A stretch of DNA of 40,869 bases, taken from IMG/VR virus record IMGVR_UViG_3300006641_000057, positions 1 to 40,869 of that record; one strand, given 5' to 3'. The position numbers and the translations under genes are program-made. Source of the DNA: a virus. Below the pieces are notes generated by a model. The model saw only the letters and a program-made list of their open reading frames with translations. It did no database searches and was not told the DNA's origin. Shown piece by piece: positions 364 to 36,843 of the stretch; positions within the stretch are counted from its first letter, which is position 1; every line of letters starts with the position of its first letter.

Positions 364-392
364 AGCCTACCATGGCACGGAAACATGCGCAA
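364..392 (-). promoter_or_regulatory. Family promoter for the circle-spanning operon
   Basis: On the minus strand, -35 TTGCGC (387-392) and -10 TAGGCT (364-369) are 17 nt apart. The spacer carries GTTTCCG and ends in GG, as in the other copies. It lies about 20 nt before the ATG at 344 with a GGAGG site between. Confidence 0.8.
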
Positions 393-422
393 GGTTAGCG
401 GACGGGCAGCCAAGGAGGCTCC

Positions 423-803
423 ATGCTCGCTGCGTTCGTTCTGCTCACCATCACCTCGTCTCCCATCGCCGCGGAGGTCGACGCCGCGTTCACCGCCTGC
501 GAGAACGCCAGCGCGAACGCGATGGGGGTCACCGACCCGCCCACGATCGCCGCGCTGCGGGAGGAGTGCCGCGTGCCGTGCGTTGCGCTGGCACAGGCCA
601 TCGTCGACACCGGGATCGCCGATCCGGCCCCGTACGTCGGCCGCGTGCTCAGCGCGTGGCGGGTGCACGACGGCGCCATCGCCTCGGGTGGGGCGCTGGA
701 GGGGCTGGCGTTCGACCAGCCCGCCCTGATCGCCGCGCTCGCTGACCTGCGGGCGCTCCGGTTCGAGGTCGCCCATCAGGTCGCGTTCGAGGCGCTGCCC
801 TGA
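423..803 (+). CDS. Small secreted protein with signal peptide
   Basis: A 126-aa protein starting at ATG 423 behind AAGGAGG. The first 17 residues (MLAAFVLLTITSSPIAA) form a hydrophobic segment ending in an SPxAA-type signal peptidase site, so export through Sec is likely. The mature part is helical, Ala-rich and has three cysteines (TAC, EEC, VPC). I recognise no family. It stands alone on the plus strand between the circle-spanning operon and the fibre genes, and its stop abuts that of the fibre gene in the hexamer TGATCA. A periplasmic lysis helper or superinfection factor is possible but unproven. Confidence 0.75.
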   Translation: MLAAFVLLTITSSPIAAEVDAAFTACENASANAMGVTDPPTIAALREECRVPCVALAQAIVDTGIADPAPYVGRVLSAWRVHDGAIASGGALEGLAFDQPALIAALADLRALRFEVAHQVAFEALP

Positions 804-1715
804 TCAGGTCGTGAAGCGCCGGACGTAGCCAGTCCCGCCCGTGACGGTCGCAGAAGCCGCGATCTCCGGGCGGAACCAGAGCGTGAGCGTCCCGCTGCCC
901 GTGCAGACGTAGTGAGCGGTGATCACGGCTGGGACCGGCGTTCCGGATGAGCCGCCGTTCGGCGCGGGGCCCGTGCCGCAGGTGCTCCAGCCGCTCGCGC
1001 CCCCCGTGCTCACGACGCCCGTGCCGCCGCCCTCGAAGGCCGAGGCGGTCGGGTACATGCCGAAGGAGGTGCAGCTCGATGACGACGCACCGCCGCTCTC
1101 GACCAGGGCCCAACGCCATCCGTTCGTTGCGGCGCTGGTCGTGATCAGCGGAATGAACGTGATCATGTAGGTCTGACCGGCGGTCACGGACAGCGACAGC
1201 GTGGTGGACGCGCCCACCCCCGTGTTGTCACTCGTCGTCGGCGTGCCGGTGACGGCGGTGAGCGTGTAGTCGTCGGCCGTGGCGACGGCTCCGATCTGCG
1301 CCGCTGTCGGGGTGGTGAGGGTGCCGGCGCCGCTCAGCCAGGTGGTGGCAGACCCCGAGCCCCCGAGCGCCGTTCGGGCCGCGGACGTGAGCGCCGTCAA
1401 CGCCGCCGTGGACGCCCCGGTGAAGTAGGGCAGCCGATCCGCGGCCGGGGTGAGCGCACCCAGCGCCGTCAGCGACGCGGTCAGGGCCGTACCCAGCGAC
1501 ACCCAGGAGCCCGAGACCATCACCGTGACGGCGTCGGCCGAGGTTGCGGCGTCCGTCGCGATCCAGACGGCTCCGTCGGCGGCGGTCGTGGGGCGGGAGG
1601 CGAGGGTGCCAGCGCTCACCACCGCCAGCGCAGACGCCGCAGCGGTGATCGGGCCGAGGGCGAGCCCGACCACCCGGGGGACCAGCGAGGAGATGCGCGT
1701 CCCGATCTGGCTCAC
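804..1715 (-). CDS. Probable tail fibre or adhesin protein
   Basis: A 303-aa protein starting at GTG 1715, which overlaps the previous stop as GTGA. Residues 1 to about 170 are low-complexity Ala/Thr/Ser/Gly sequence with the character of a fibre shaft. The C-terminal third has a beta-rich head with cysteines (SSSSCTSF, STCGTG, HYVCTG) and ends YVRRFTT. Composition, length and position beside a second structural-looking gene and the lysis block suggest a receptor-binding fibre. This is inferred from composition, since I cannot name a fibre family. A longer frame begins at GTG 1739, but the 1715 start fits the coupling seen throughout this genome. Confidence 0.6.
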   Translation of the reverse strand: MSQIGTRISSLVPRVVGLALGPITAAASALAVVSAGTLASRPTTAADGAVWIATDAATSADAVTVMVSGSWVSLGTALTASLTALGALTPAADRLPYFTGASTAALTALTSAARTALGGSGSATTWLSGAGTLTTPTAAQIGAVATADDYTLTAVTGTPTTSDNTGVGASTTLSLSVTAGQTYMITFIPLITTSAATNGWRWALVESGGASSSSCTSFGMYPTASAFEGGGTGVVSTGGASGWSTCGTGPAPNGGSSGTPVPAVITAHYVCTGSGTLTLWFRPEIAASATVTGGTGYVRRFTT

Positions 1716-3843: not shown

Positions 3844-4203
3844 TCAGCGGCTGAGCATCTGCCGCAGATCGGCAGCGTCTGCGCGCATGTGCTCCGGGTC
3901 GTCACCCTCGTCGGGCTCGGCCGCGGCGACGTCGAGGTGGTCAGCCTCGGCACGGATGGCGACCCGCATCGCCTCCACGGCACCGCCCACGACCCAGGAG
4001 GAGCCGTTGTGGTCGAGCGGGCCCCAGCACAGCGCCGGGTCGCGCTCGTCTCCCGGCTCCCAGTGACACTCGATCGTGGGGCGGCCGTAGCCGAGCGCCG
4101 TGGTGACCGTGTCGTCCCGGCTCGTCTCGCCGAGGCTGAGGTCGGGCCACGTCGCCAGCACGAGCTGCTCTGCGGCGTCCACCGCGTCTGAGAGGGCGCT
4201 CAC
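3844..4203 (-). CDS. Unknown acidic 119-aa protein, last gene of early operon
   Basis: Starts at GTG 4203, overlapping the previous stop (GTGA). The N-terminal half contains ALGYGRPTIECHWEP. The C-terminal part is acidic (AAAEPDEGDDPEHMRADAADL). No membrane segment and no known domain. It is the tenth and final gene of the early operon that starts at 7790. Confidence 0.65.
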   Translation of the reverse strand: MSALSDAVDAAEQLVLATWPDLSLGETSRDDTVTTALGYGRPTIECHWEPGDERDPALCWGPLDHNGSSWVVGGAVEAMRVAIRAEADHLDVAAAEPDEGDDPEHMRADAADLRQMLSR

Positions 4204-4520
4204 CGGTTGAGCTCACGGATGATCACCGCCCGCGCCATGGACTCGCTGTGCACCTCCACGATCCCGCCGGGCGCGAGGATGAACATCGCGCCCCCAGGGT
4301 AGCGGCGGAGGGTGATCGTCCTGGTCTTCGAGCTCACCCGGAGCTCCTCCGCCCCGTCGGGCGCGGTGGTCTGGGTGACGGGGTAGCCCATGGCGGAGAA
4401 GCGGTCGGCCAGGCGCTGGGTGACCGTGGTGTGGTCGGCCAGAGCGGCGGGCGGGGACTTCCACCAAAACGCGAGGGCGGCTCCGGTGAGGGCGAGGGCG
4501 ATCCAGAGGTCGATGCTCAT
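4200..4520 (-). CDS. Small membrane-anchored protein, 106 aa
   Basis: Starts at ATG 4520 behind GGAGGGAGC. Residues 4-20 (DLWIALALTGAALAFWW) form one transmembrane segment. A soluble domain follows with beta-rich stretches (RTITLRRYPGGAMFILAPGGIVEVHSES, split over residues 68-95). The single N-terminal anchor without a cleavage site suggests an inner-membrane protein facing either side. It may act on the envelope early in infection, but I recognise no family. Overlaps its upstream neighbour by ATGA and the next gene by GTGA. Confidence 0.65.
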   Translation of the reverse strand: MSIDLWIALALTGAALAFWWKSPPAALADHTTVTQRLADRFSAMGYPVTQTTAPDGAEELRVSSKTRTITLRRYPGGAMFILAPGGIVEVHSESMARAVIIRELNR

Positions 4521-4690
4521 GCTCCCTCCATGGCGGCGGACGCCGCCGCGATCGTCGTCTGCAGCCACTCGGGGCGGTGACCGAGCGTGAGGAGGTAGGC
4601 AGCCCACGCGCGGTGAGCCTCCAGGTCCTCCAGCGTGCGGAGCGGGCGGAACGCGCAGGCCTCGACCAGGAGGCGGTGGGCGGCGGTCAT
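4517..4690 (-). CDS. Small 57-aa protein in early operon
   Basis: Starts at ATG 4690 behind GGGAGGGTGCC and ends at TGA 4517. The sequence begins MTAAHRLLVEACAFRPL and ends AASAAMEGA, with two predicted helices and an aromatic middle (HRAWAAYLLTLGHRPEWL). Both ends overlap neighbours by ATGA, and the 170-nt slot would otherwise be an unexplained gap, which supports its reality. Family unknown. Confidence 0.6.
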   Translation of the reverse strand: MTAAHRLLVEACAFRPLRTLEDLEAHRAWAAYLLTLGHRPEWLQTTIAAASAAMEGA

Positions 4691-5418
4691 GGCACCCTCC
4701 CGATCGCCAGCGCGTCCTGGGCAGCGGCTTGCAGGCGGTCGCGCTGAAGCCGCAGCGCCTCCACGCTGGCCGGGAGGTCGGCGAGGTCTTGGTCGGGCTG
4801 GCCGAGGGCGACGGCGACAGCGCGGAGGAGGGCGCTCGTCCGTGCGCCGTCGACCGACAGCACGTGTACGGCGTGCGCGTGGACGAGCACGCCCTGGGCG
4901 ACCAAGGCGAAGTCGCGCCGGTTGCGCTCCACGATCGACACGAGGCCGAGGTGGTCGATGTCGGCGGGGATGCCCATGTAGTCGCGAATGGCCTCCAGCG
5001 CGTCCCGGTAGGCGTCGCGCTCGGCGGCGACCGCGGCCACCTCGTCGACGTGGACGAAGCGGTCAAAGCCTTCCTCTTGTTCGGTGGGGTCGATCGTGAT
5101 CAGGCGGCGGCGCGCCATGAGGGCGTCCACCTCGCGCCGGTAGGCTGCGCGAAGATCTGCGCGGTCGTCGTCTGGCCCTGGCCCCTCGCCGAGACAAGCG
5201 GTCAGGACGTCGTCGATCTCCTCGTCGGTCTCGGGTGCACGGCCAAGATCGGCCACGACCTGCGAGACGGCCGCCAGGCTGTCGTCTTCAGGGAGGTCGC
5301 CCCCTGCGGCGTCGTACGCCGCCTGCCAGACCATCTCGGTCAGGCGGGCACGGTCCATCGCCGCCTCGCAGGCCACGGGGTCGATGTCGTCGTCAGGGGT
5401 ATCGTTGGGGTGGTTCAT
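4687..5418 (-). CDS. Unknown acidic 243-aa protein
   Basis: Starts at ATG 5418, overlapping the previous stop by ATGA. The N-terminal half is strongly acidic (NDTPDDDIDPV, PEDDSLAA, APETDEEIDDV, PGPDDDRADL). A helical heptad-like stretch follows at about residues 125-145 (VDEVAAVAAERDAYRDALEA), with another near the C-terminus (VEALRLQRDRLQAAAQDALA). The acidic surface could mimic DNA or bind basic host proteins, but that is speculation. No catalytic motif seen. Confidence 0.65.
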   Translation of the reverse strand: MNHPNDTPDDDIDPVACEAAMDRARLTEMVWQAAYDAAGGDLPEDDSLAAVSQVVADLGRAPETDEEIDDVLTACLGEGPGPDDDRADLRAAYRREVDALMARRRLITIDPTEQEEGFDRFVHVDEVAAVAAERDAYRDALEAIRDYMGIPADIDHLGLVSIVERNRRDFALVAQGVLVHAHAVHVLSVDGARTSALLRAVAVALGQPDQDLADLPASVEALRLQRDRLQAAAQDALAIGRVP

Positions 5419-5606
5419 GAGGCCACCACCCAGCCCTGCGCGCGCAGGGCAGCAACGGTCTTCGCCCAGCCCGCGACCGTGTCCGGGCTGGTGGTGTTGG
5501 CGACCTCGCGGCCGGAGACGCGCACGGTGACGCGGTCTCCGGTCTGGTCGGTGATCTCGATCCGGGCGTCGCCGGGTCGGCCTCGGGTCAGGGCTTGGGG
5601 GGTCAT
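5415..5606 (-). CDS. Small 63-aa protein in early operon
   Basis: Starts at ATG 5606 (MTPQALTRGRPGDARIEITD) and overlaps neighbours by four nt on both sides. It looks like a short beta-strand pair (RIEITDQTGDRVTVRVSG) followed by a helix (VAGWAKTVAALRAQGW). Family unknown. Confidence 0.6.
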   Translation of the reverse strand: MTPQALTRGRPGDARIEITDQTGDRVTVRVSGREVANTTSPDTVAGWAKTVAALRAQGWVVAS

Positions 5607-5803
5607 GGGTTCACCTCGTGCTTCGCCGCGAACGGGTGCGGCTGGGGTTGAATGCGGATCTTGTTGAGCCGGATCAGGTCCGCGAGCGCGTCCCGGATGG
5701 CCTTGGGCTCGATGGGCGCGGCTCGGCGCGCTTCGATGAACGTGAACGGGCGGTTGAGTTGGCGCGCCCACACCAGGAGGGCGTTGCGGTCGGCGTGGCT
5801 CAT
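5603..5803 (-). CDS. Small 66-aa protein, winged-helix-like
   Basis: Starts at ATG 5803, overlapping the exonuclease-linked gene by ATGA. The sequence FTFIEARRAAPIEPKAIRDA followed by LADLIRLNKIRIQP (residues 20-53) has the helix-turn-helix plus wing pattern of a small DNA-binding fold. A DNA-binding or regulatory role is an inference from this pattern only. Confidence 0.55.
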   Translation of the reverse strand: MSHADRNALLVWARQLNRPFTFIEARRAAPIEPKAIRDALADLIRLNKIRIQPQPHPFAAKHEVNP

Positions 5804-6429
5804 TCCTCGTCTCCGGGCGGCTCGGTGTCGGGGAGGGTCTGCTGCACGCCGCGGAGGCGCGCGAGGATCGCGGTGTGCTCGGCGGGGGGGACGTCTTGGG
5901 CTCTGCGCTGGCCGAGGGCCGTGTGGACCTGCTGCTTGGTGACGATGCCGCCGGTCACCAGCTCCATGAGCTGGTCGAAGAAGGACGGCGCGCCGAGCGG
6001 CTGGACCGTCCAGGGCGCCTTCTTCCCGCGCGTCACCGTGAGGTTCACGGTGAACGGGCGGTTGTTGGGCAGGTGCGACAGGTGGCTCACCCGGATCCCG
6101 CCGACCACGTCCTTGCCGAACCTCACGTCGGGGTCGAGGTACAGCGTCACCCGGCGGCCCCTCCACTCCTTCATCTTCGGGCCCCACGCAGCCACCAGGA
6201 GGCGGCGCATGGTCTTGCTGGGCTTCCACGGCTTCGCTCGCCCGTCGGCGAACGAGCAGCCGCTGAACTCGATCGACCAGGGCTGCTCGGCGCCCTTCCC
6301 GGCGCTGCGGGCGCGCTCGACCGTGACCGTGAACGGCGGCCGGCCGACCAGATCATCTGCGTTGAGTTGGTCCGTCTTCGGGGCCAGCGCTGCAAGGACC
6401 TCGTCCTCGCTGGGATCTTCGTCGCTCAT
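5800..6429 (-). CDS. Conserved-type phage recombination-associated protein, 209 aa
   Basis: Starts at ATG 6429, overlapping the exonuclease stop by ATGA. The core contains KPWKPSKTMRRLLVAAWG, WRGRRVTLYLDPDVRFG and VGGIRVSHLSHL (residues 68-118). I know this pattern from phage proteins of unknown function encoded beside RecE or Cas4-like nucleases. It is followed by a basic beta stretch (FTVNLTVTRGKKAPW) and a C-terminal helical region. Coupling to the RecE-like nuclease suggests a partner in recombination or single-strand DNA handling. No annealing-protein signature is clear. Confidence 0.7.
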   Translation of the reverse strand: MSDEDPSEDEVLAALAPKTDQLNADDLVGRPPFTVTVERARSAGKGAEQPWSIEFSGCSFADGRAKPWKPSKTMRRLLVAAWGPKMKEWRGRRVTLYLDPDVRFGKDVVGGIRVSHLSHLPNNRPFTVNLTVTRGKKAPWTVQPLGAPSFFDQLMELVTGGIVTKQQVHTALGQRRAQDVPPAEHTAILARLRGVQQTLPDTEPPGDEE

Positions 6430-7226
6430 GGAACCTCCTCTTGGTCTTCGTCATCGGACTCGACCCGATCGGGGTCGATCATCCAGTCGGGCAGCTCCAT
6501 CGAAGCCACCTCGGGGAACCTGCCGGGCCACCGGTCAGCATCCATGCAGGCGCGCAGGGTCTGCAGGAGCCCGGCCAGCTCCCGGTCGGCGTGGTCGAGC
6601 AGGGCCTCGGACAGCCGGAAGACCCCGACGTCGTGCGGCGCCTTGGCCTCCACCGCGATGAGGTGGCAGGCGACGTCGCGCCCGGTCGCGATGCGCTCGC
6701 CCCGTCGGTACCACGCGGCCTGCAGGTGGTAGCCGTCGCGGATCGCGAGGCGCTCGAACAGGCGCAGATCGCCGGTGCCCTTGAGGTCGGCGTGGTGGGC
6801 GAGGCCGCGCGCGTCGACGAGGCCCTTGCACGCGATCCCGGTGTCGGGGTCGGTCCAGGTGATGGCGCTCTCGGTGAGCGCGTCGGTCAGGAGGGCGAGG
6901 GCTTCGGGGTGGCGGAGGACGGCGTCGGCCTGCGCCTGGATGATGTCGCGCTCGGTGGCGCGCAGGATTTCGCCGGGGTGCGCGGCCTGGAAGTCCTTCC
7001 AGACGTTGCCGCGGCGGTCGCCCTCGAACACCGCGTACCGCTCGGCGAAGGCGTCGGGGCCCTCCAGGACCAGCGTGTGCAGCGCGCGGCCGGAGAGGCG
7101 GCTGGTGGTGTCGGCGTCCTGCTGCTCCAGGGCGTGGCGGTAGTGGAGCGGGGAGCCGCGCCAGAGGTGCTTGAGCGTGCTCCAGTTGACGCCGGGGAGG
7201 CCGATGTAGGCGTCGAAGGGGCTCAT
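6426..7226 (-). CDS. RecE-like 5'-3' exonuclease (PD-(D/E)XK, DUF3799 type)
   Basis: A 266-aa protein from ATG 7226 behind GGAGG. Visible nuclease features are GRALHTLVLE (47-55), GLVDAR with D138, DLK with D147 and K149, and the QAAWY motif (169-173) typical of the RecE/Cas4/AddB group. The N-terminus (PGVNWSTLKHL) also matches RecE C-terminal domains. The family degrades one strand from double-strand ends to feed annealing. It would serve phage recombination or concatemer formation together with the coupled 209-aa gene. The long host RecE N-terminal region is absent, as usual in phages. Confidence 0.85.
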   Translation of the reverse strand: MSPFDAYIGLPGVNWSTLKHLWRGSPLHYRHALEQQDADTTSRLSGRALHTLVLEGPDAFAERYAVFEGDRRGNVWKDFQAAHPGEILRATERDIIQAQADAVLRHPEALALLTDALTESAITWTDPDTGIACKGLVDARGLAHHADLKGTGDLRLFERLAIRDGYHLQAAWYRRGERIATGRDVACHLIAVEAKAPHDVGVFRLSEALLDHADRELAGLLQTLRACMDADRWPGRFPEVASMELPDWMIDPDRVESDDEDQEEVP

Positions 7227-7417
7227 GGCATCCTCCAGCCACCAGGGCCGGGATGGGGGTTGGCGGCCTTGATCGCGCGCCACTTGGCGGCGCTCGCTTC
7301 GTCTGCGGCGCGGTGGTCGGCCGCCCGCGCGTCGGAGCGCGCGAGGAGGAGCTGGTCGAAGGGCGTCCAGGGTGGGGCCCGGAGAAGGAGGAGGTCTTCG
7401 GGGTCGATGTCATCCAT
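7223..7417 (-). CDS. Small acidic-to-basic 64-aa protein
   Basis: Starts at ATG 7417 (MDDIDPEDLLLLRAPPWTPF) and overlaps the previous gene by eight nt (ATGGATGA) and the exonuclease by ATGA. The middle is helical (ARAADHRAADEASAAKWRAI). No family recognised. Coupling to the nuclease suggests co-expression. Confidence 0.6.
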   Translation of the reverse strand: MDDIDPEDLLLLRAPPWTPFDQLLLARSDARAADHRAADEASAAKWRAIKAANPHPGPGGWRMP

Positions 7418-7790
7418 GGGCGACCTCGTACAGCTCGCCGCCGGTCTCCACGACGCCGGGGGACTGCACGGGCTCGGGCAGTCCGAGCACGCGGCGGAGG
7501 TGGGGGTGTTCGGCAGCCAGGGCAACGGCGCTGGTCATAGTGGGCGCCGTGAAGGTGAGGTCTTTCGTGACCCTGATCGTGTAGATCTCGGCTCCGCTCG
7601 GGGTCGAGCGGAAGAACGGCGCCCCGTCGCCCTCGAAGTACCCGGCCACCTCGATCCAGCTGTAGACCGATGTGGCCTCCAGCTTTCCGATATCCGCGGT
7701 CACGCCCGCGGCTCGGAACTGGGCCACCACGTCCCGCGCGTGGTCGTGCGCCTGCTGCAGTAGGTCCAGGCGCTGCTTGTCGTCGGTCAT
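7410..7790 (-). CDS. Unknown 126-aa protein, first gene of early operon
   Basis: I take ATG 7790 with AGGAGGTG upstream. A longer frame starts at a GTG lying inside the ribosome site region and next to the -10, so it is rejected. The N-terminus is helical (KQRLDLLQQAHDHARDVVAQF). A beta-rich middle follows (SWIEVAGYFEGDGAPFFRS, IYTIRVTKDLTF). No known domain. It heads the ten-gene minus operon driven by the family promoter at 7809-7837. Confidence 0.65.
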   Translation of the reverse strand: MTDDKQRLDLLQQAHDHARDVVAQFRAAGVTADIGKLEATSVYSWIEVAGYFEGDGAPFFRSTPSGAEIYTIRVTKDLTFTAPTMTSAVALAAEHPHLRRVLGLPEPVQSPGVVETGGELYEVAHG

Positions 7791-7808: not shown

Positions 7809-7837
7809 CACATACCGCGGGACGGAAGCAGGCGCAA
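7809..7837 (-). promoter_or_regulatory. Family promoter for the ten-gene early operon
   Basis: Minus strand -35 TTGCGC (7832-7837), 17-nt spacer containing GCTTCCG and ending GG, -10 TATGTG (7809-7814). It fills the 54-nt gap between the stop at 7845 and the start at 7790, the only real gap in this block. Confidence 0.8.
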
Positions 7838-7844: not shown

Positions 7845-8474
7845 TCAGCGGGCGGAGGGGAAGGGGAGCACGTTCTGGCGTTCCTCGCCGGTCATCGCTC
7901 GGCGGGACACCACGCGGACCACGCCGCCATCGTAGCGGACCTGCAAGACCTCGCCGTCGCGGGGCAGGAGGATCTTGGCGTGGGGGACGGCGCGGGTGAT
8001 GCGGCGGCTGGAGACCATCTCGGTGTACATCGCCACGCGGGCGCGGATGCTGGCCCCCTTGGCGTTGAGGCGGGCCTTGACCTCGCCCGCCTCGATCTCC
8101 CACGAGTTGAGCTCGTGCTGGGCGCCGGCGAGCTGCTCCGCGGCGGCCAGGACCTCGGGGTCGGTGAGGTCGACGCTGGCCTCGCTCTCGTACAGGTTCT
8201 CGACGGCGCCGTCGGGGAAGGCAGCGGCGAGCAGGTAGACCGGGTGGTCCTGCTCCACCATGGCGAGCAGGCGGCGCACGACGTTCTCGCCCTCCGGCGT
8301 CTCAAAGTGGACCACACCGTCGGCGAGCATGCCGCGGAGGGTGTGGACCACCAGGGTCCGCTCGTTCGGGGCACCCTTGTTCTCGGGCTCGGGCAGCTCC
8401 TCGACGGTGCCGCCTGCCTCGGGCGGAAGCTCATCGCTGAAGGGGGTCTCGGCTGCTGGTTTCGGTCGCGGCAT
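7845..8474 (-). CDS. Unknown helical 209-aa early protein
   Basis: Starts at ATG 8474 with AGGAGG upstream. It has an acidic, proline-rich N-terminus (ETPFSDELPPEAGGTVEELP), then a domain near residues 45-90 containing LVVHTLRGMLADGVVHFETP. A long helix follows near residues 115-150 (AAAEQLAGAQHELNSWEIEA), and the C-terminus is beta-rich and basic. Divergently transcribed from the HTH regulator, with its own family promoter. The fold is unknown. A nuclease inhibitor or recombination helper would fit the place, but nothing in the sequence proves it. Confidence 0.65.
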   Translation of the reverse strand: MPRPKPAAETPFSDELPPEAGGTVEELPEPENKGAPNERTLVVHTLRGMLADGVVHFETPEGENVVRRLLAMVEQDHPVYLLAAAFPDGAVENLYESEASVDLTDPEVLAAAEQLAGAQHELNSWEIEAGEVKARLNAKGASIRARVAMYTEMVSSRRITRAVPHAKILLPRDGEVLQVRYDGGVVRVVSRRAMTGEERQNVLPFPSAR

Positions 8475-8495: not shown

Positions 8496-8524
8496 GCTAT
8501 ACCGAGATTCGGAAGCACGCGCTA
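8496..8524 (-). promoter_or_regulatory. Family promoter divergent from the HTH regulator
   Basis: Minus strand -35 TAGCGC (8519-8524), 17-nt spacer with GCTTCCG ending GG, -10 TATAGC (8496-8501). The spacer holds the inverted repeat CCGA-GAT-TCGG (8502-8512), a possible operator. It lies 20 nt from the regulator start at 8544, so regulator binding here could control both directions. I see no clear plus-strand promoter for the regulator itself. Confidence 0.7.
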
Positions 8525-8543: not shown

Positions 8544-9200
8544 ATGCGTGAGGTGATGGACCGGTTGAGGGCGGTTGTCGGCGGAGAACCGACGCATACC
8601 GAGGTGATGAAGCACCTCGACGCGCACGGGGTCAAGGTCGACCTGTCGAGCATTTCCTGTTGGATGGGCGGGACGCGCCGGATGTCGTCGTACTGGCTAC
8701 GCCGCATCGGCCCGCTGGCTGGCTACTCGGAGGAGGAGGTGGAGGCCTTGACGGGGTCGAGGGGCGGGGAGATTCGGCTGCCCGAAGGGGCGGGGCTGCT
8801 GCTCCGGCGCATCAAGGCGGCCATGGGGGACACGTCGGTCAGGAACTACGCCCGCCAGCTCACGCGGGGCGGGGTGCGCGTCGTCCACGCCAGCCTGTAC
8901 CGGTGGCTGACGGGGAACCGGCCGGTGCCGCCGGAGATGGCGCTGCCGCTCGCGCGGCACCTGGGCATCACCGGGGACGATCTCTGGCAGGTGTTCGCCG
9001 AGACCCACCGGCCGCCGATGCCTGTTGCGGCGGCGCGGCAGTTGCTGGCGGCCGTGCGCGCTGCGCCGGGCGCCTACACGGTGGAGGGGCGGGTCATCGA
9101 CGGGTGGGAGCGGTACCGGCCTTGGCTGGAGGTGTTGCCGGCCGAGGCCGCGCCGGTTGAGGCGCCGTCGGAGCCCGCCCGCTCGGTCCACCACTGGTGA
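8544..9200 (+). CDS. Tandem helix-turn-helix DNA-binding regulator
   Basis: A 218-aa protein from ATG 8544 behind GGAGGGGG. Two related segments are visible. Residues about 18-62 contain HLDAHGVKVDLSSISCWMGG and end WLRRIGPLAG. Residues about 98-144 contain GGVRVVHASLYRWLTGNRPV and end ARHLGIT. Both have the Cro/C1-type order of helices, with SSISCWMGG matching ASLYRWLTG at the recognition helix. The protein looks like two fused XRE-type domains with a C-terminal extension (VEGRVIDGWERYRPWLEVLP). It is the best candidate for a master regulator here. Targets are not shown by the sequence. Coupled by GTGA to the methylase. Confidence 0.75.
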   Translation: MREVMDRLRAVVGGEPTHTEVMKHLDAHGVKVDLSSISCWMGGTRRMSSYWLRRIGPLAGYSEEEVEALTGSRGGEIRLPEGAGLLLRRIKAAMGDTSVRNYARQLTRGGVRVVHASLYRWLTGNRPVPPEMALPLARHLGITGDDLWQVFAETHRPPMPVAAARQLLAAVRAAPGAYTVEGRVIDGWERYRPWLEVLPAEAAPVEAPSEPARSVHHW

Positions 9201-10054
9201 CCCCGCTGTGGCCCTACCCGGGCGGCAAGCGGACGGTGGCGCCTCAGGTGGTGGAGCTGCTGACGGCCAGGCCGTACCGTCGCTACGTGGAGCCCTGCCT
9301 CGGTGCGGGGGCTGTGGCGCTGGCTGTGCCTGCCGGGCCGATGCTGCTCGGGGAGACCGATCGGCACCTGCTGCGGCTGTGGCAGGCGGTGAGGGACACG
9401 CCGCACGAGCTTGTGGAGCTCGCGCGCACGATCGGCGACACGTACCCGCACCGCAAGGACGCCTGGGATGCGCTGCGGGAGGTGGAGCACAAGAGCCACG
9501 GCCTGGAGGCTGCCGCGGCGACGTGGCTCTTGTTGCTGGGCTGCTTCAACGGCCTCTACCGACGCAACCCCAACGGTCGCTTCAACGTCCCGTGGGGTGA
9601 CAAGGCCCGGGCGTTGCCGCCGGTCGAGGTCGTGGTCCAGGCAGCCCGGCAGCTCTCCGGCGCCGTCCTGGTCGGCGACGACGTCCACGCCACCCTCGCG
9701 CGCTGTGGCGACGGTGACGCGGTCTACGTTGACCCGCCGTACGTCGACACCCAGCCCTATGGCTCGGGCGCGTGGTGGCGCCTGGAGGACCTCCAGCGCC
9801 TTGTGGTGGCCTGCGACGCTGCGGCCCGGCGTGGGGCGTTGGTGGTGCTGAGCCACACCGACGACAGGGAGGACGCGGGGAGCCTGCTGCGCGCGCCTGG
9901 GCCGGTGCGGCGGGCCCTGGAGGGGTGGGACGTGCGGGCGGTGGAGGTGAGGGAGTCGATCACCTGCAAGGCCGAACGCGGGAGGCGTGGCGAAGTGCTG
10001 GCCGTCCTCGACTACCGACGCGCGGAGGTTGCGCCCGTTTCCGCCGCGCGGTAG
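9197..10054 (+). CDS. dam: Dam-type DNA adenine methyltransferase (predicted GATC N6-adenine)
   Basis: A 285-aa protein from GTG 9197 (GTGA overlap). Class D12/MT-A70-independent Dam motifs are clear: YPGGKR (7-12), VEPCLGAGAV (31-40, SAM binding), FNGLYRRNPNGRFNVPWG (117-134), which in Dam family proteins contacts DNA, and the catalytic DPPY (179-182). Length is typical. No restriction enzyme is encoded nearby, so it is an orphan methylase, perhaps protecting phage DNA or marking it for regulation. GATC as the target is family knowledge and not proven here. Its stop codon TAG is also the first part of the -10 of the next promoter. Confidence 0.9.
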   Translation: MTPLWPYPGGKRTVAPQVVELLTARPYRRYVEPCLGAGAVALAVPAGPMLLGETDRHLLRLWQAVRDTPHELVELARTIGDTYPHRKDAWDALREVEHKSHGLEAAAATWLLLLGCFNGLYRRNPNGRFNVPWGDKARALPPVEVVVQAARQLSGAVLVGDDVHATLARCGDGDAVYVDPPYVDTQPYGSGAWWRLEDLQRLVVACDAAARRGALVVLSHTDDREDAGSLLRAPGPVRRALEGWDVRAVEVRESITCKAERGRRGEVLAVLDYRRAEVAPVSAAR

Positions 10055-10057
10055 AGT
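10029..10057 (+). promoter_or_regulatory. Family promoter for the replication gene cluster
   Basis: -35 TTGCGC (10029-10034), 17-nt spacer with GTTTCCG ending GG, -10 TAGAGT (10052-10057). It sits inside the last codons and stop of the methylase gene. It precedes the GGAGG site and ATG of the gene at 10074. Confidence 0.8.
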
Positions 10058-12840: not shown

Positions 12841-12844
12841 CTCC

Positions 12845-26295: not shown

Positions 26296-26472
26296 GGTGG
26301 TGGTGATCGGCTTCTGCGACACCTCCACCCGGCTGAGGGACCGGGATCCATGGCTCACCAGCGGTGTCGGGAAGCGTGGGACCGACGACGGCGTGCAGAT
26401 GGTGAGCTCCCCTTCGCTGACCCGCCGCCCCCAGCGAGACCCCGGGGCGGCACCTCTTCCCCTGGAGGCTGC
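26296..26472 (+). other. Long untranslated leader or missing small ORF
   Basis: This is the only gap near 180 nt inside the structural cluster. It might hold an upstream start for the next gene (ATG 26350, MAHQRCREAWDRRR), but third positions there are only about 60% GC against about 90% in neighbours. A second frame (ATG 26294) has GC-rich third positions but begins inside the -10. I see no clear gene or known RNA here. Confidence 0.35.
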
Positions 26473-27943: not shown

Positions 27944-30067
27944 TCAGGCGACGGTCAGCACGCCGCTCGTCGTGGTCGTCATCCGCCAGCACGCCCCGAG
28001 ATCCGGCCAGTCGATCCCGCCGACGCTCTGCGCCTCATCGACCACGATCGGCAGGGCATCAAGCCCGACCGCCCGCCGGAGGGCAGCACGAAGGATCGCA
28101 TCGGCCGCGATCCTCCGCCCCGTCGAGGCCACGCGCCACGGACGGCCATCGACCAGCACGGCGATCTCGTCGTCGGTGGCGGTGATCGTCACGGGGCCCA
28201 TGTCGCCGAGCTGCGCGAGCTTCCCGGCCAGCACGCGGCCGGGCGCCGAGCGGACCAGCTCCAGCACCTGCTCTGCGCGGGTGCGGGTGGCAGCCTTCGC
28301 GGCGGCGTGGGCTGCGGTTTCGGCTGCGCGCTGTGTGATGGCAGCGGCGCGCTCCTGGTGCGCGGCCAGGAGGCGCGGGTAGGCTTCGGCGTCGGCGAGG
28401 AGTTGCCGGTCGGTGGGGCTGAGGGTCAGCGCCTCCGGGGCGATCGGCTCCGGTCCGGGGTCGGGTGCGTCCTCGGGGCGGGTGCCGCGGTCGGCGACGC
28501 GCTGGCGGTAGGTGGCCCACGCTGCTGCTGCCTGGGTGAGCGTCTCGACGCGCTGACGGGCCGACGCCAGACCGCGCTTGGTGCCTGCGACCGCTTCCTC
28601 GACCGTCGCGCGGTCGGTGAACGCGCCGGGCGCGGGCAGCTCGGCGGGGCAGTCCCCGAGGGCTCGGAGGGCTGCGCGGTGGGTCTTCCACGCTGCCGTG
28701 AGCGCGGCAAGATCGGCCCGGTCTGCTTCTGCGAGACGGACGCGCCCAACCGCGTCCGTCAGATCCTGGTGAATCAGCGGAGCCGGATTCGGCAGGGGCT
28801 CGGGGCGCGGGCCCAGAGCCTCAACCGCCCGGTCATAGGTCGCCCGCGCGTCGCTCGCGCGCTGGCACTTCGAGACGGCGACGCCGGGGCAGCCATCCAC
28901 GGGCGGCTCGACCAGGGCGGCGCGCTGGCGGTCCCACGCGGCGATCTCCCGCTCGCGGGACTCCTGCGCCAGCACCTCCCCACGGTAGTACTCCCGGGCT
29001 GCTGCTGCCTCGGCTTCCCGGGCTGCGAGCGCTCCGCGGGCCAGGGCGACCTCCGCCTCCGCCGCCTCGATCTCGGTGGGCCCTGGCTCGCGTGCGGGCT
29101 CCGCAAGCGCCGCCCGCCTCGACGTCCACGCCGCACGCTCCTGCTCGCGCTGGGCGGAGGCAGCCGCCGCCCGCTCGTGCTCCGCCACCTCGGCGAGCGC
29201 TTGTGCCGCTGCGGTGACCTCGCGCTCCCACCGCGCGACAGCCTCACCAGCCGCGTCCTGCTCCCCGTCCAGCGGCTCAGCGACCGTGGGCTCCACCGGC
29301 TGCGTAGCGTCCCACCGGGCCTGCTCCGCCTGCCGTGCCGCGTGCTGGGCACCGGCTGCCTGCCACGCCACCACGAGCGGGGTGTGCGCGGCTACATCTG
29401 CGCGCGAGGCCTTGACCGCCTGCTGCGCCGTCCGTGCCGCGGCGAGCTGCTCAGCATCGGGCGCCACCGGCTCAGGTCCAGCCGACGCCCGCGCCGCCTC
29501 GTCAGCCTGCCCCTGCGCGTGAGCTGCCTCCTGCCGGGCCACGCGCACCCACTCCCCGGCCCGCTTCTCGTCTCGTGGCTCGCTCTCGGCCAGGTCGGCG
29601 GCGAGCAGCGCCGTCACGGTCGAGCCGGGCAGCACGCGCGCCAGGAACTCACGGAAGGCCCGGCCGCTGCCGGCACCCTCCGCCAGCTCGCGCCAGGCCA
29701 TCGGAACCAGGACCAGCCGACCCCGGTCCGCGTCGGTGAGCTCACCCAGGTAGGGAGCAAGCCCCGCCTGCGACGAGATCCGCACCGTCGCACCATCCGC
29801 CGTCTGGATGGAGATCGTCGGTGTCCCGCCGGGCGTCCGCTTCCTGGCGATCTGGACCCCGGACGCCAGCGAGACGATCACCAGCGCTGCTTCCCCGGCC
29901 CGCTGCAGGGCGCCATCCAGGGTCGAGCCCCAGAGGCACCACGCGATCGCTGCGATGAGCGTGCTCTTCCCGGACTCCGACGGCCCGGTGATCGACGCTG
30001 ACGCCGGCAGCGTCAGGTCTGTTGACTCGTGCGGGCCGATGCCCGACACGCGAACCCGTGTGATCAT
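27944..30067 (-). CDS. SMC/Rad50-like ATPase inserted in the late region
   Basis: A 707-aa protein from ATG 30067 with AGGAGG upstream. Walker A GPSESGKST (28-36) lies at the N-terminus and Walker B LPIVVDEAQS near residues 672-681 at the C-terminus. A long Ala/Glu/Arg helical coiled coil (about 190-600) lies between. The signature motif appears as STGRRIAADA rather than LSGGE. A C393-P394 and C401 pair sits in the middle of the coil, a possible metal hook like Rad50 but with wider spacing. No SbcD/gp47 nuclease partner was found. It runs against the structural genes with its own family promoter. A DNA-end, anti-defence or defence role is possible; the sequence decides none of these. Confidence 0.8.
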   Translation of the reverse strand: MITRVRVSGIGPHESTDLTLPASASITGPSESGKSTLIAAIAWCLWGSTLDGALQRAGEAALVIVSLASGVQIARKRTPGGTPTISIQTADGATVRISSQAGLAPYLGELTDADRGRLVLVPMAWRELAEGAGSGRAFREFLARVLPGSTVTALLAADLAESEPRDEKRAGEWVRVARQEAAHAQGQADEAARASAGPEPVAPDAEQLAAARTAQQAVKASRADVAAHTPLVVAWQAAGAQHAARQAEQARWDATQPVEPTVAEPLDGEQDAAGEAVARWEREVTAAAQALAEVAEHERAAAASAQREQERAAWTSRRAALAEPAREPGPTEIEAAEAEVALARGALAAREAEAAAAREYYRGEVLAQESREREIAAWDRQRAALVEPPVDGCPGVAVSKCQRASDARATYDRAVEALGPRPEPLPNPAPLIHQDLTDAVGRVRLAEADRADLAALTAAWKTHRAALRALGDCPAELPAPGAFTDRATVEEAVAGTKRGLASARQRVETLTQAAAAWATYRQRVADRGTRPEDAPDPGPEPIAPEALTLSPTDRQLLADAEAYPRLLAAHQERAAAITQRAAETAAHAAAKAATRTRAEQVLELVRSAPGRVLAGKLAQLGDMGPVTITATDDEIAVLVDGRPWRVASTGRRIAADAILRAALRRAVGLDALPIVVDEAQSVGGIDWPDLGACWRMTTTTSGVLTVA

Positions 30068-30084: not shown

Positions 30085-30113
30085 AACGTACCACGCCCCG
30101 GAAACACGCGCAA
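30085..30113 (-). promoter_or_regulatory. Family promoter for the SMC-like gene
   Basis: Minus strand -35 TTGCGC (30108-30113), 17-nt spacer with GTTTCCG ending GG, -10 TACGTT (30085-30090). It lies 18 nt before the ATG, with AGGAGG between. Confidence 0.82.
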
Positions 30114-30125: not shown

Positions 30126-30154
30126 TAGCGCCACCATCTCCCGCGTGGTACCGT
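30126..30154 (+). promoter_or_regulatory. Promoter for the sheath gene
   Basis: -35 TAGCGC (30126-30131), 17 nt, GG then -10 TACCGT (30149-30154). It lies back to back with the promoter on the other strand. The spacer has CTCCCG in place of TTTCCG, so it is a diverged family member. Confidence 0.6.
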
Positions 30155-32110: not shown

Positions 32111-32340
32111 GCGGCGAGCTCGTCGACGGCCTGTACGTGACGGGCGTCGACGCGGACCTCTGGTCGATCGAGCTGTGCGAGCGGTTGCCCCCTCGGCTGC
32201 GTGACGTGGAGCGCTGCACGATCCGCGAGATCCTGCAGTCGCTGGCGAAGCTCGACGTCTTCGACTGGCAGCGCGAGCAGGGCGAGATCGACAGGGCGCA
32301 CGAGGCTGCGCTACGACGTGCAGGGGTGACCCATGGCTGA
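31679..32340 (+). CDS. Tail assembly chaperone, long form by -1 frameshift
   Basis: A 220-aa fusion: 118 codons of the short form to position 32032, then 102 residues in the -1 frame starting LPAGGRARRRALGEP and ending HEAALRRAGVTHG. The downstream frame has a coherent protein (ADLWSIELCERLPP, IREILQSLAKLDVFDWQREQ) but no good start of its own. That is the known gpG/gpGT arrangement of tailed phages, where a minority of ribosomes make the long form, which binds the tape measure. Confidence 0.7.
32026..32071 (+). promoter_or_regulatory. Programmed -1 frameshift signal
   Basis: Slippery heptamer T_TTT_TTC (32026-32032) in the correct frame (codons GGT TTT TTC). After a 4-nt gap comes a stem CGCCGGGG/CCTCGGCG (32037-32044 with 32064-32071, one G-T pair). 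It encloses a second stem GCGCG/CGCGC with a GCGA loop (32050-32063). Six T in a row is striking in this GC-rich genome. Confidence 0.75.
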
Positions 32341-33868
32341 CGACGCGGGGGTGATCGACCGGTTGGTGGTGGGCGTCAGCTACCTCTACGACAAGGCCGG
32401 CGAGGCTGCGGCGCGGTCGGGGTTGACGGGGGTGGCGACGGCTGCCGTGGGCGCTGGCCTGGCGCTGGCTGGGATGGCCTACGAGGCCGCCCTGGCCGCC
32501 GACGAGGCGAACGACCTGGGCATCCGGATGGGCCTCTCCGCCTCGGAGGTGACCGCCTGGAGCTACGCCGCCGAGCGGGCGGGTGCGTCTGTCGAGGTGC
32601 TGAGTCAGGGGCTGATCACGCTCCAGCGCAACCTCGGCGCGGCTCGCGAGGGCACCGGGCCTGCGGCCGAGGCGTTCGAGAAGCTCAGGATCGACCCACG
32701 CGAGATCCAGAGCGCCGACGACGCGCTCTTCCACATCGCCGACCGCCTGCAGACGATCGACGACGAAGGCGAGCGCGCGACGCTGCGCCTCACGCTTCTC
32801 GGCGAGGCCGGGCCACGGCTGGCGGAGCTGCTCGGTCAGGGGAGCGGGGGGATCGAGGAGCTCCTGACGCGCGCCGAGAGGCTGGGCGTCGTCATCTCCG
32901 ACGCGGACGCAGAGCTCAGCGGCGCCTTCCTCGACTCGCTCGGGGACCTCGGCGAGGTGGCGACCAGCACGGCGCGGCGGATCGGCTTCTCCGTCCTGCC
33001 CGCTCTGGAGCGCGTGACCACCGGGACACGGGACTGGTACCTCGCGAACAGCGATCTCATCGACCAGCGGCTCGACATCATCCTGGAGGGGATCGGGAAG
33101 GCCGCGGACCTCGCGACGACGCCGTTTGGGCGGCTGGTTGTCGCGGGCGTGGGGCTGGGCACGGCGTGGAAGGCGGCGGGCACCGCAGAGGCCCTCGCTA
33201 CCGCCGCTGCTGCCTCGGGAGGGCTCGGCGGCGCCCTGGCTAAGCCTGTGGCTGGCGCGCTCGCCCTGGCAAAGCGCGGCGGGCCGCTGGCCGCCGGCCT
33301 GCTGCTCGCCACGCTGGCGCTTGAGGACCTGTCCGTCGCTGCCGACGACGGGGACGCCGCGATCCTCCGCCTCGCCGAGACCCTGGGCGTCCGCGGCGAG
33401 ACCCAGGAGGGGATCGAAGCCGTCCGCGACCTGCTGTACGAGGCAGCAGCAGCGGGCGGGGTCATGGCGGACGTGATCGGGGTGGAGCTGGTCGACGCGA
33501 TGAACAAGCTCGCCGAGACCCTCCCTTCGCTGCAGCCCCTCGCGGACTTCCTGGCGAGCATCGATCTGGGCGGGATCATCGAAGCCGGCACAGAACGCGT
33601 CCAGAAGGCCCGCAAGGGCTTCGAGCTGACGCGTCGCTACTACTCCGGGGATCCGTCCGTGCGCGTCCGTGAGGGGCGCGAGGCGCTCTCTGGGGTGCTC
33701 TCCGCGGACCCCCGCAGCCTGGAGGCGCTGTCGGGCGCTGGAGGGATGCTCATCGCGCCGAGCGTCAACATCCAGGCCAACCTCGACCGCGGTGAGCTCG
33801 TGCGGGCGGCGAAGGAAGAGGTGGGGCGTCAGGTCGACAGCGCGCTCCAGGCCCAGGGGGTGGAGTGA
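32333..33868 (+). CDS. Tape measure protein
   Basis: A 511-aa protein from ATG 32333, overlapping the chaperone end. Long Ala-rich helices, with hydrophobic stretches near residues 30-55 (GVATAAVGAGLALAGMA) and about 310-330 (GGPLAAGLLLATLALEDL), are typical of tape measures. ASEVTAWSYAAERAG near 70-84 is a motif often seen in them. At about 0.15 nm per residue this length would predict a tail near 75 nm. That is an estimate from the general rule. Confidence 0.82.
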   Translation: MADDAGVIDRLVVGVSYLYDKAGEAAARSGLTGVATAAVGAGLALAGMAYEAALAADEANDLGIRMGLSASEVTAWSYAAERAGASVEVLSQGLITLQRNLGAAREGTGPAAEAFEKLRIDPREIQSADDALFHIADRLQTIDDEGERATLRLTLLGEAGPRLAELLGQGSGGIEELLTRAERLGVVISDADAELSGAFLDSLGDLGEVATSTARRIGFSVLPALERVTTGTRDWYLANSDLIDQRLDIILEGIGKAADLATTPFGRLVVAGVGLGTAWKAAGTAEALATAAAASGGLGGALAKPVAGALALAKRGGPLAAGLLLATLALEDLSVAADDGDAAILRLAETLGVRGETQEGIEAVRDLLYEAAAAGGVMADVIGVELVDAMNKLAETLPSLQPLADFLASIDLGGIIEAGTERVQKARKGFELTRRYYSGDPSVRVREGREALSGVLSADPRSLEALSGAGGMLIAPSVNIQANLDRGELVRAAKEEVGRQVDSALQAQGVE

Positions 33869-34437: not shown

Positions 34438-34440
34438 TTC

Positions 34441-34767
34441 ATGCTCCAGATCCCCCTCGACGCCCGCTATGACCGCTACACCCTCCAGGTCGACTTGGAG
34501 GGGGTCACCGTCGGCCTGCGGGTCTACTGGCTCCCCCGGGTCGCTGCGTGGTTCGTCGACGCCCTCAGCGCCGCCGGGGAGGACGTGGCGGTGGGTGCGC
34601 GGCTGACCCCTGGCGCGCCGCTTGCCCTGCCTGCTGCGTGGGAGGGAGGGCCGCCGGGGAGGTTCATCTGCACCGGGCCGGACGTCTACACCCACGACGA
34701 TCTGGGCGTGCAGGTCCAGGTGCTGTACGTGACGGCGGCGGAGATTGAGGCCGCTGCGGAGGGCTGA
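34441..34767 (+). CDS. Baseplate plug protein (Pam3 gp18-like)
   Basis: A 108-aa protein from ATG 34441. The sequence IPLDARYDRYTLQVDLEGV (4-22), then VGLRVYWLPRVAAWFVDALS and GARLTPGAPLALP follow the pattern of the Pam3 gp18 plug family, a small beta-barrel at the tube end. Small size and place before the hub gene agree. Confidence 0.7.
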   Translation: MLQIPLDARYDRYTLQVDLEGVTVGLRVYWLPRVAAWFVDALSAAGEDVAVGARLTPGAPLALPAAWEGGPPGRFICTGPDVYTHDDLGVQVQVLYVTAAEIEAAAEG

Positions 34768-34772: not shown

Positions 34773-35285
34773 TCAGGGCGCGCCCTCGTTCGGAGGGATC
34801 CTGCGCCCGCAGTCGAGCGACCAGACCGCGCCGCCGTCCGTCACGAGCCCCCTGCTGGCCCCGTCGTACCTCGGCGCGTGCGCGCTCCACGTCCACCGCG
34901 GGCGCCACCGACCGCGAGGCGGGTAGAGCGGGTGCGGAACGTCGGGCTCGTCCGGGTCCGCCCTTCGCAGGCTCGGGACCGCAGCGACGTCCTCAGATGC
35001 CGACCGTGGCCGGTACGCTGGAGGATCCCAGCGCGCCGGAGCGACCGCATGCGCGAGCACCGACTCAGCCCACGCGCGGATCCCGACTCCCGGAGGCGGC
35101 TCCGAAGCTGGACCAAGCTCCACGCCGATCGGCTGCGTCCAGCGCTTGAGCGCCTTCCTCGCCTCGCGCGTGGCCATCGACCAGTTCTTGCGCGGCCACG
35201 CGAGCACACGCAGCCGATGCGGACCGATCACGCCGATCGCGATCCCGTCGTGGGTGACGAGGTGTACAGCCAGCGATCGGGCCAT
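34773..35285 (-). CDS. Unknown 170-aa early protein inside the baseplate cluster
   Basis: ATG 35285 has an AGGAG ten nt upstream and a family promoter behind it. N-terminal beta region (LAVHLVTHDGIAIGVIGPHR), then a Pro/Arg-rich middle and C-terminus (PPGVGIRAWAESVLAHAVAP, YPPRGRWRPRWTWSAHAPRY) with many Trp. No known motif. It runs against the baseplate genes and meets the plug gene stop to stop. An accessory gene, role unknown. Confidence 0.65.
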   Translation of the reverse strand: MARSLAVHLVTHDGIAIGVIGPHRLRVLAWPRKNWSMATREARKALKRWTQPIGVELGPASEPPPGVGIRAWAESVLAHAVAPARWDPPAYRPRSASEDVAAVPSLRRADPDEPDVPHPLYPPRGRWRPRWTWSAHAPRYDGASRGLVTDGGAVWSLDCGRRIPPNEGAP

Positions 35286-35306: not shown

Positions 35307-35335
35307 TCCCTACCACCGCGCGGAAACGCACGCAA
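35307..35335 (-). promoter_or_regulatory. Family promoter for the 170-aa accessory gene
   Basis: Minus strand -35 TTGCGT (35330-35335), 17-nt spacer with GTTTCCG ending GG, -10 TAGGGA (35307-35312). Confidence 0.78.
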
Positions 35336-35362: not shown

Positions 35363-36169
35363 ATGTTCCAGCGCGTCGTCCGGCTCGCGATCGATCCCAC
35401 GAACGGCCAGGGCCAGGAGTTCGAGGGCCTCCGCCTGGAGTTCTCCACCCGCCGCACGAGCCAGGGCCTCGACGCCGCGAACCTCCGCGTCTGGGGCCTC
35501 GGCGAGGACTCCTACGGCCAGATCCAGCGCTCCGACACCCTGGTCCGGCTCATCGCTGGGCACCTCGACACGGGCACCGGGGTCCTCATGCAGGGGACCG
35601 TGGTCAAGGACTCGCTCCGGCGCCGGGTGGAGGCGGGGGAGGTCATCACCGAGTGGCAGGTGCACGAGGCCGGGGTGTCGCTGGCGTCGGTCCGGCTGTC
35701 GGCGTCGTGGCAGGGGCAGGTGACGGCGCGGGAGGTGGCGAACTACGTGGCGGACCAGCTCGGCGTGGGGCGGCTGCAGCAGGAGTTGCCCACCGAGGCC
35801 AGGTACGCGCGGGGATACGTCGTCTCGGGGGACGCACGGCAGGTGCTGCGAACGCTGGCGGCGGACTGCGGGTGCACCTACGCCATCCAGGGCGGGCGCC
35901 TGGTGTTCGTGCCGCGGGCGGGGACGCTGCGGACCCGGTCGCTGTCCTTCGGGCCGGACTCCGGGCTTGTTGGGTGGCCCGAGGCTGCGGATGGCGGGAA
36001 GGTGGTGGCGGAGGTCATGCTGGCGCCGTCGGTGCTGCCGGGGGACCTGTACCGGGTCGAGGGGGAGCTGCTGGCGGGGGACTACGTGGCGGAGGTGGTG
36101 GAGCACGATGGGGATTCGGGGTGGTCCAACCCCTACTATACGCGGATCACGGGGCGGCGGGCCTCGTGA
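35363..36169 (+). CDS. Baseplate hub protein
   Basis: A 268-aa protein from ATG 35363 with GAGGTG upstream. Beta-rich, containing VRLAIDPTNGQGQEFEGLRL, GHLDTGTGVLMQGTVVKDSL, and a phage tail-hub type domain around DARQVLRTLAADCGCTYAIQ (residues about 157-176). Place between plug and spike indicates the central hub. Its last 34 nt overlap the antisense zinc-ribbon gene. Confidence 0.7.
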   Translation: MFQRVVRLAIDPTNGQGQEFEGLRLEFSTRRTSQGLDAANLRVWGLGEDSYGQIQRSDTLVRLIAGHLDTGTGVLMQGTVVKDSLRRRVEAGEVITEWQVHEAGVSLASVRLSASWQGQVTAREVANYVADQLGVGRLQQELPTEARYARGYVVSGDARQVLRTLAADCGCTYAIQGGRLVFVPRAGTLRTRSLSFGPDSGLVGWPEAADGGKVVAEVMLAPSVLPGDLYRVEGELLAGDYVAEVVEHDGDSGWSNPYYTRITGRRAS

Positions 36170-36798
36170 CCAGCGGCGACTCGCCCCAGATCTTCCGCCA
36201 CGCCGCGCCGGAGCCAGTGGGTGCGGACGGGCGGCGCGGCGTCCTGCCGGTCGACCGCCTCCACCTCGTCGAACCAGCACTGAGCGAGCAGCCCCCGTGC
36301 CTCGCTGGTGCCCCAGTAGCGGGGCTCTGCGGCGCCGAGGGAGACGCCGAGGTCGTAGCCTTCCTCGTACGCGGCCTTCACGGCTGCGATGTGCTCGCGG
36401 ATGGTGGGGCGGCGGCCAAAGCTCTCCCGCAGCATCCGATCGGCCTCTCGGCCCTCCGGCGTCTGCAGGGTCAGCCGGTCGCTGTAGCCGCACTCCGGGG
36501 TGCAGAGGACGGCCGCGGTGGTGCCGCGCCAGTCGACGCGGAGGGGGAGGCCGCAGGCTGGGCAGGCGGGGTCGGCCCGCGAGGCGTCAGCGTCAGGGCA
36601 AACGACGCACGGAACGCCCCCTGTTCTCCAGTCGGTCAGCCGCCAGCGCGGGCCAGCATCACCGATGCTGGCAAACACAAACACCGGCTCGCCGTCGTCT
36701 ACGAACACCACGCGCCCGACGTGCGCTTCTCCCGGCGCGTCTGCGCGCGGAAAGAGGAAGACGTCGCCAACGCGGGGATCTTGCTTCGGGTCCCTCAT
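36136..36798 (-). CDS. Zinc-ribbon accessory protein, 220 aa
   Basis: ATG 36798 follows GGAGG and promoter 36815-36843. The N-terminal part is a small beta domain (VGDVFLFPRADAPGEAHVGR). Cysteines come in pairs: C64/C67, C79/C82, C99/C103, the pattern of one or two zinc ribbons. The C-terminal half has helices with a conserved-looking motif YEEGYDLGVSLG. It is transcribed against the hub and spike genes and overlaps the hub gene end. Nucleic-acid binding is plausible but unproven. Confidence 0.65.
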   Translation of the reverse strand: MRDPKQDPRVGDVFLFPRADAPGEAHVGRVVFVDDGEPVFVFASIGDAGPRWRLTDWRTGGVPCVVCPDADASRADPACPACGLPLRVDWRGTTAAVLCTPECGYSDRLTLQTPEGREADRMLRESFGRRPTIREHIAAVKAAYEEGYDLGVSLGAAEPRYWGTSEARGLLAQCWFDEVEAVDRQDAAPPVRTHWLRRGVAEDLGRVAAGHEARRPVIRV

Positions 36799-36814
36799 GA
36801 ACACCTCCACCCAC

Positions 36815-36843
36815 AACCTACCACCGCACGGAAACACGCGCAA
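36815..36843 (-). promoter_or_regulatory. Family promoter for the zinc-ribbon gene
   Basis: Minus strand -35 TTGCGC (36838-36843), 17-nt spacer with GTTTCCG ending GG, -10 TAGGTT (36815-36820). Closest to the consensus of all copies. Confidence 0.82.

Follow-up and report, generated by a model that had tools for sequence, protein, structure and literature searches.

In phage P1, with its C1 operators, and in phage phiC31, with its conserved inverted repeats, one repressor acts on many operators that overlap intergenic promoters. The CII promoters of phage lambda carry a direct repeat, TTGC-N6-TTGC, the repeats of which flank the -35 element. The repressor of cluster A mycobacteriophages, e.g., L5 and TipsytheTRex, is a monomer whose two DNA-binding domains occupy successive major grooves of an asymmetric site (PMC9283540). 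In the middle promoters of phage T4, an excellent -10 is preceded by a MotA box at a distance of 12 +/- 1 bp, and TGn is present in about half of them (PMC2988021).

The window analyzed here corresponds to the whole of the phage record IMGVR_UViG_3300006641_000057 in IMG/VR (40,869 bp, 71% GC). It represents an unclassified phage which encodes a Phage_portal_3 portal protein, a terminase, neck and tail proteins, a helicase and a primase-helicase, and 7.8% of it is noncoding. The window contains eight copies of the arrangement TTGCGCNNGYTTCCG-N6-GGTANNNT, located at positions 364, 7809, 8496, 30085, 35307 and 36815 on the minus strand and at 10029 and 26267 on the plus strand.

These copies resemble the P1 C1 and phiC31 systems in that a single repressor, as proposed below, would serve many promoter-overlapping sites in gaps between genes; the phiC31 sites are palindromic, however, and the distances between operators and promoters vary in both systems, unlike here. 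Compared to the lambda CII repeat, the present sites read TTGC-N6-TTCC, the first repeat being the -35 itself, and hence have another register. The operators and stoperators of cluster A phages (PMC9283540) are, like the present copies, short, asymmetric, numerous across the genome, oriented with transcription and in some cases located in promoters, yet they are 13 bp long and of a different sequence, whereas here each copy holds the same promoter register. Cluster A stoperators also occur in short intergenic spaces away from promoters, whereas no such copies were seen in the window, where nothing outside the eight sites scores above 14.1 bits. The start-associated sequences (SAS) of cluster K mycobacteriophages (PMC3203893) are likewise asymmetric repeats situated just upstream of gene starts, near the SD and in one orientation, but the SAS, GGGATAGGAGCCC, covers the SD, whereas the fixed part here ends at the -10 and the SD follows 6-11 nt further on. 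As in T4 middle promoters, a phage box around the -35 is combined with a host-type -10 and, in about half of the cases, TGn; in place of the MotA spacing, however, the box ends 8 bp before a poor TANNNT. Neither MotA nor AsiA was recognised by Pfam or PHROGs among the proteins scanned, several of which lack a family, and a CII relative was not recognised among them either.

Sequence and setting of the eight sites

All eight sites fit the 25-base pattern TTGCGCNNGYTTCCGN6GGTA with at most one mismatch, the chance expectation with up to two mismatches being 0.01 according to dinucleotide shuffles of the window. Their matrix scores range from 27.5 to 40.6 bits, while the best non-site in the window, a partial match at 16055+ that lies 18 nt before the ATG at 16102 and is devoid of TTCCG, reaches 14.1 bits; across 40 Markov simulations the maximum score averaged 11.1 bits, with a top value of 16.0 bits. 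When each site was left out of the matrix in turn, it still ranked in the top nine.

The initial annotation had described these copies as a promoter family defined by TTGCGC (or one change), a spacer of exactly 17 nt and TANNNT, and its positions and spacing hold for all eight, while TANNNT is found in only five, the others being TATGTG (7809), TATAGC (8496) and TAGGGA (35307). The -35 is indeed TTGCGC in six sites and differs by one base in TAGCGC (8496) and TTGCGT (35307), and the spacer begins with NNGYTTCCG and ends in GG in every copy, as had been reported. The spacing thus falls in the 16-18 nt range of primary sigma factors (sigma-70/HrdB type), with TA in 8/8 sites and TTG in 7/8; T is found at position -15, forming the extended -10 TGn, in four. 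Both hexamers are weak by E. coli standards.

Conserved columns are confined to the stretch from -37 to -11 plus a handful of positions ahead of the SD, and the flanks look random. All eight sites are oriented towards the gene that they precede, and in seven of them GGAGG or AGGAG occurs 6-11 nt past the -10, with an ATG 16-21 nt past it. The earlier statement that each copy sits directly before a gene start therefore stands for these seven and fails for site 26267, which has no SD. A matrix scan finding the motif equally often inside genes had been named as grounds for discarding the family; instead, seven sites are wholly noncoding in a window with little noncoding DNA, while that at 10029 shares bases with the 3' end of the methylase gene preceding it.

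The heptamer GYTTCCG is rare outside the sites, since only two of its ten occurrences in the window lie elsewhere, as compared to 11.4 overall in dinucleotide shuffles, and all six occurrences of GTTTCCG are within the sites. Within the box, two GNTT(G/C)CG units spaced at 10 bp may be taken as a direct repeat. This arrangement scored best of all those tested, including inverted-repeat readings, which were rejected; the direct repeat is nevertheless weak (p = 0.035 for 10 bp and 0.23 over all arrangements).

Genes behind the putative promoters

The first putative promoter (364-392, minus strand, 38.7 bits) comprises TTGCGC at 387-392, GTTTCCG at 378-384 and the -10 TAGGCT at 364-369, with a GGAGG SD 6 nt on and an ATG at 344, from which the gene at the left end of the window (3-344, minus strand; 114 aa, no family) would be read. 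The second (7809-7837, minus strand, 33.9 bits; TTGCGC, GCTTCCG, SD GGAGG, ATG 7790) heads a leftward and probably early operon (3844-7790, minus strand), as judged from gene spacing, which includes a DUF3799 PDDEXK nuclease (6426-7226). The third and most deviant copy (8496-8524, minus strand, 27.5 bits), with GCTTCCG, an SD GGAGG and an ATG at 8474, precedes a gene for a 209-residue protein without a family or an INPHARED match (7845-8474, minus strand), and sits in a divergent gap with the HTH gene 8544-9200. The fourth (10029-10057, plus strand, 33.4 bits; TTGCGC, GTTTCCG, -10 TAGAGT, SD GGAGG, ATG 10074) faces a rightward replication operon (10074-14913, plus strand), again delimited by gene spacing, which encodes a DUF7768 protein, a ResIII/DEAD helicase and a primase-helicase.

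Three further copies precede genes that run antisense among the tail genes. The sixth promoter (30085-30113, minus strand, 38.3 bits; TTGCGC, GTTTCCG, extended -10 TGGTACGTT, SD GGAGG, ATG 30067) serves an SbcC-like AAA ATPase gene (27944-30067, minus strand). The seventh (35307-35335, minus strand, 32.8 bits; GTTTCCG, SD AGGAG, ATG 35285) serves a gene of 170 codons without a family (34773-35285, minus strand), while the eighth and best match (36815-36843, minus strand, 40.6 bits; TTGCGC, GTTTCCG, extended -10 TGGTAGGTT, SD GGAGG, ATG 36798) serves a gene whose 220-residue product has neither a family nor an INPHARED match (36136-36798, minus strand). These antisense genes look like inserted extras (morons) provided with an early-type promoter, and gene content suggests early timing for the box-headed genes as a whole.

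The fifth copy (26267-26295, plus strand, 30.9 bits; TTGCGC, GTTTCCG, -10 TACCAT) is followed by neck1, for which ATG 26353 and TTG 26473 are candidate starts. Lacking an SD and serving a structural gene, it counts against a single early regulon. An open frame in another phase (26294-26725), the ATG of which overlaps the -10 of this site and which itself overlaps neck1, probably does not represent a gene.

A relative with the same promoter layout

Terminase, capsid or primase used as single queries returned no close relatives, and a search for related prophages among sampled Myxococcota, Pseudomonadota, Actinomycetota and Acidobacteriota gave distant terminases only, or nothing. A terminase alignment scan yielded IMGVR_UViG_3300010885_041437 (41.4 kb; hereafter G602), and a capsid alignment scan returned G602 again and nothing else. 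G602 and the window have about 28 proteins in common, at roughly 30-54% identity, in a largely conserved structural order. A partial homolog of the SbcC-like ATPase is located in G602 between terS and terL in the sense orientation; the genes that flank it in the window abut in G602, indicating that this gene was moved in one of the two lineages.

No box promoter was found in G602, which has one three-mismatch match, inside a stretch homologous to 34441-34767, and eight occurrences of GYTTCCG, none of them upstream of a gene start. A scan for TTG[AC][CG] followed by TA, covering all spacers of 13-21 nt and retaining start-proximal pairs, identified six pairs in G602, five of which are spaced by exactly 17 nt (1567+, 40287+, 14395-, 39086- and 40298-). 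These five have TAAAC-like -10s, and three are followed by GGAGG and an ATG 18-19 nt on. The layout in G602, i.e., TTGAC or TTGCGC, 17 nt, a TAAAC-like -10, a short leader, an SD and ATG, matches that of the window, and at 40298- TTGCGC itself serves as the -35 without a box.

The positions correspond as well. G602 39086- is the counterpart of window 10029 (methylase, small gene, helicase), and 14395-, in a variable cassette flanked by the homologs of 34441 and 35363, is that of 35307, while the gap between site 8496 and the HTH gene is matched by the divergent pair 40287+/40298-; G602 r39868, HTH-like by eye, lies upstream of the methylase in the position of 8544-9200. Box promoters were not significantly enriched on genes absent from G602 (Fisher p = 0.14).

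Taken at the level of sequence, the -35, 17-nt spacer, -10 and short leader make up a grammar common to both phages, presumably that of the host: since G602 has the same layout without the box, these elements can be read as ordinary host-sigma signals. By the same comparison, as G602 has both the layout and a TTGCGC -35 but no box, the internal GYTTCCG box would be the window phage's own addition and the part that needs a reader. The proposal of a promoter family with a possible operator for a phage or host factor is accordingly retained as regards the box, which is special to this phage relative to G602, and reduced by two weak copies and by the start at 26267.

Those two copies, with scores of 11.0 bits (25369) and 9.3 bits (30126), are in the range of chance and have in common with the family only the extended -10 TGGTANNNT. 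Of the six instances of that element in the window, five lie no more than 60 nt ahead of a gene start, although such positions account for 4%. The two instances concerned, TGGTAGACT (25389-25397, plus strand) and TGGTACCGT (30146-30154, plus strand), lie without a box upstream of the structural-region genes 25443 and 30179, respectively, and in G602 TGGTACGCT precedes both the M15 peptidase gene and the homolog of 32333-33868. Judged by their sequence context, the box-free extended -10 sites look like promoters of structural and lysis genes and form a separate class.

The box itself was also sought elsewhere, and these scans revealed no box-bearing relative. The exact motif matched six IMG/VR contigs once each without RBS context, which was taken as chance, and adding an SD requirement left two single matches.

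The two phages differ in a further region. Just past the primase-helicase gene, the window has about nine copies of TGAACCAGTC/GACTGGTTCA around a noncoding, locally AT-rich stretch (14911-15210), predicted from sequence to be a replication origin of the iteron-like kind. At the corresponding location in the relative (L194, about 14685-14970), another repeat, AGCGGTCCA, is found.

A putative regulator and competing explanations

In the mechanism that we propose, the primary-sigma polymerase of the host would recognise TTGCGC as the -35 and TANNNT as the -10 across the 17-nt spacer, giving a very short leader that begins at about the SD (7/8 sites). Neither a sigma factor nor an RNA polymerase was recognised among the phage proteins scanned, some of which have no family. 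The asymmetric box TTGCGCNNGYTTCCG (-35 to -21) takes in the -35 element together with the upstream half of the spacer, and a regulator bound at -37 to -21 would block polymerase, which is ordinary repressor geometry. We infer that the sites act as promoters in the cell and that one phage protein on the box would switch all eight units together, i.e., the operons presumed to be early and the antisense genes among the tail genes, along with a single site located in the structural operon. That the eight sites represent the promoters of one early regulon, under one phage DNA-binding regulator that most likely represses, is the reading to which we assign about half of our confidence. The regulator might be a repressor of the immunity type, or it might act in early shut-off; a role as lysogeny repressor is not indicated, because no integrase was recognised by Pfam/PHROGs among the proteins scanned (some without a family).

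The same box could serve an activator which, in the manner of MotA in T4 or CII in lambda, takes the place of the usual sigma contact at the -35 and brings in host polymerase; we regard this as somewhat unlikely. Weak hexamers would suit it too: the early-operon promoters look feeble unaided, because T occupies -15 in only half of the sites, and the -35 is never TTGAC. The orientation of the box and its distance to the -10 are fixed in all eight copies, the box permits a direct-repeat reading with a period of 10 bp, and in T4 middle promoters a phage box similarly stands in for the -35 (PMC2988021). A fixed register does not need an activator, however, since G602 keeps both 17 nt and TTGCGC without a box, and the constant spacer was for this reason dropped as proof of activation. 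Furthermore, TTCCG at -25 to -21, within a spacer of normal length, would be an unusual place for activator contact, and the direct repeat is weak.

Alternatively, no regulator may be involved, the family simply representing a favoured promoter for a primary or alternative sigma factor of the host, the spacer sequence being one for which host polymerase happens to have a preference. The sites clearly have the layout of a promoter, the window phage and G602 have a promoter family each, and the sigma factor at work may be an alternative one. Against this, just one copy of the 25-mer, allowing for a single mismatch, was present in each of five out of ten cellular genomes (~64 Mb), all ten of which had been chosen for holding a match to a looser form of the pattern. 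Similarly, the degenerate motif with GGAG gave 81 scattered single matches in unrelated taxa among GTDB genomes and no locus with two good sites. Seven conserved spacer bases correspond to no known need of a primary sigma factor, and G602 has the same layout without them, rendering this explanation unlikely.

It could also be argued that the antisense genes brought with them a mobile piece of promoter DNA, so that the likeness of the sites reflects recent copying instead of selection for a common regulator. All three antisense genes do have a box promoter, and the closest resemblance is seen among the sites of genes 27944, 36136, 34773 and 3-344. Since the flanks are unrelated, the sites do not appear to be recent copies; the N6 and NN positions vary between sites along with the flanks while the box stays constant, and three further sites head other operons, which makes this account very improbable. 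Least credible of all is a translation-start RNA element akin to the cluster K sequences, because, even though seven sites end 16-21 nt before ATG and run into a strong SD, any leader transcribed from the promoter would begin downstream of the fixed part, folding is no better than that of shuffled sequence (z -0.6 to 0.9), 26267 has no SD, and the motif-to-SD distance is variable, in contrast to the constant -35/-10 spacing.

To return to the repressor-type regulator favoured above, the first candidate is the HTH-like protein of 218 aa encoded by 8544-9200 (plus strand), which has a sub-threshold HTH_31 match in its second half. Its gene adjoins site 8496, which fills the gap upstream of it, and binding of the box by this protein is plausible by position. 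The two halves of the protein are weakly alike (with two gap settings, 8/2000 and 47/5000 shuffles score as high), and this internal repeat suggests two HTH units, which would allow a two-domain monomer of the cluster A kind. No homology to the cluster A repressor was found, nor any INPHARED phage match at E 0.01 or meaningful PDB match, and structure models were poor (mean pLDDT 44-45, none usable). A more specific and rather doubtful proposal is that 8544-9200 encodes a single-chain tandem-HTH protein, unrelated in sequence to known phage repressors, that reads the non-palindromic 10-bp direct repeat GNTT(G/C)CG-N3-GYTTCCG in a promoter of standard spacing, and that G602, having matching promoter positions with another regulator and box, is a sister phage whose immunity differs.

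The sites provide a putative regulon map for a phage group for which these searches found no cultured close relative, while the diverged relative allows host promoter grammar to be told from a phage-specific element. Antisense genes inserted among the tail genes are linked, through their promoter family, to the replication operons, and the HTH protein, if it is the regulator, would be another example of an asymmetric operator recognised by a single chain.

Two smaller observations concern other genes. TACGCT or TAGTCT is found 5-6 nt before ATG at window 36859-36871 (ATG 36871+) and at G602 r10621_11424 and r19076_19606, a placement predicted to give leaderless transcripts. Finally, the product of 5603-5803 (66 aa), winged helix-like by eye and without a family match, represents a second candidate DNA-binding protein.
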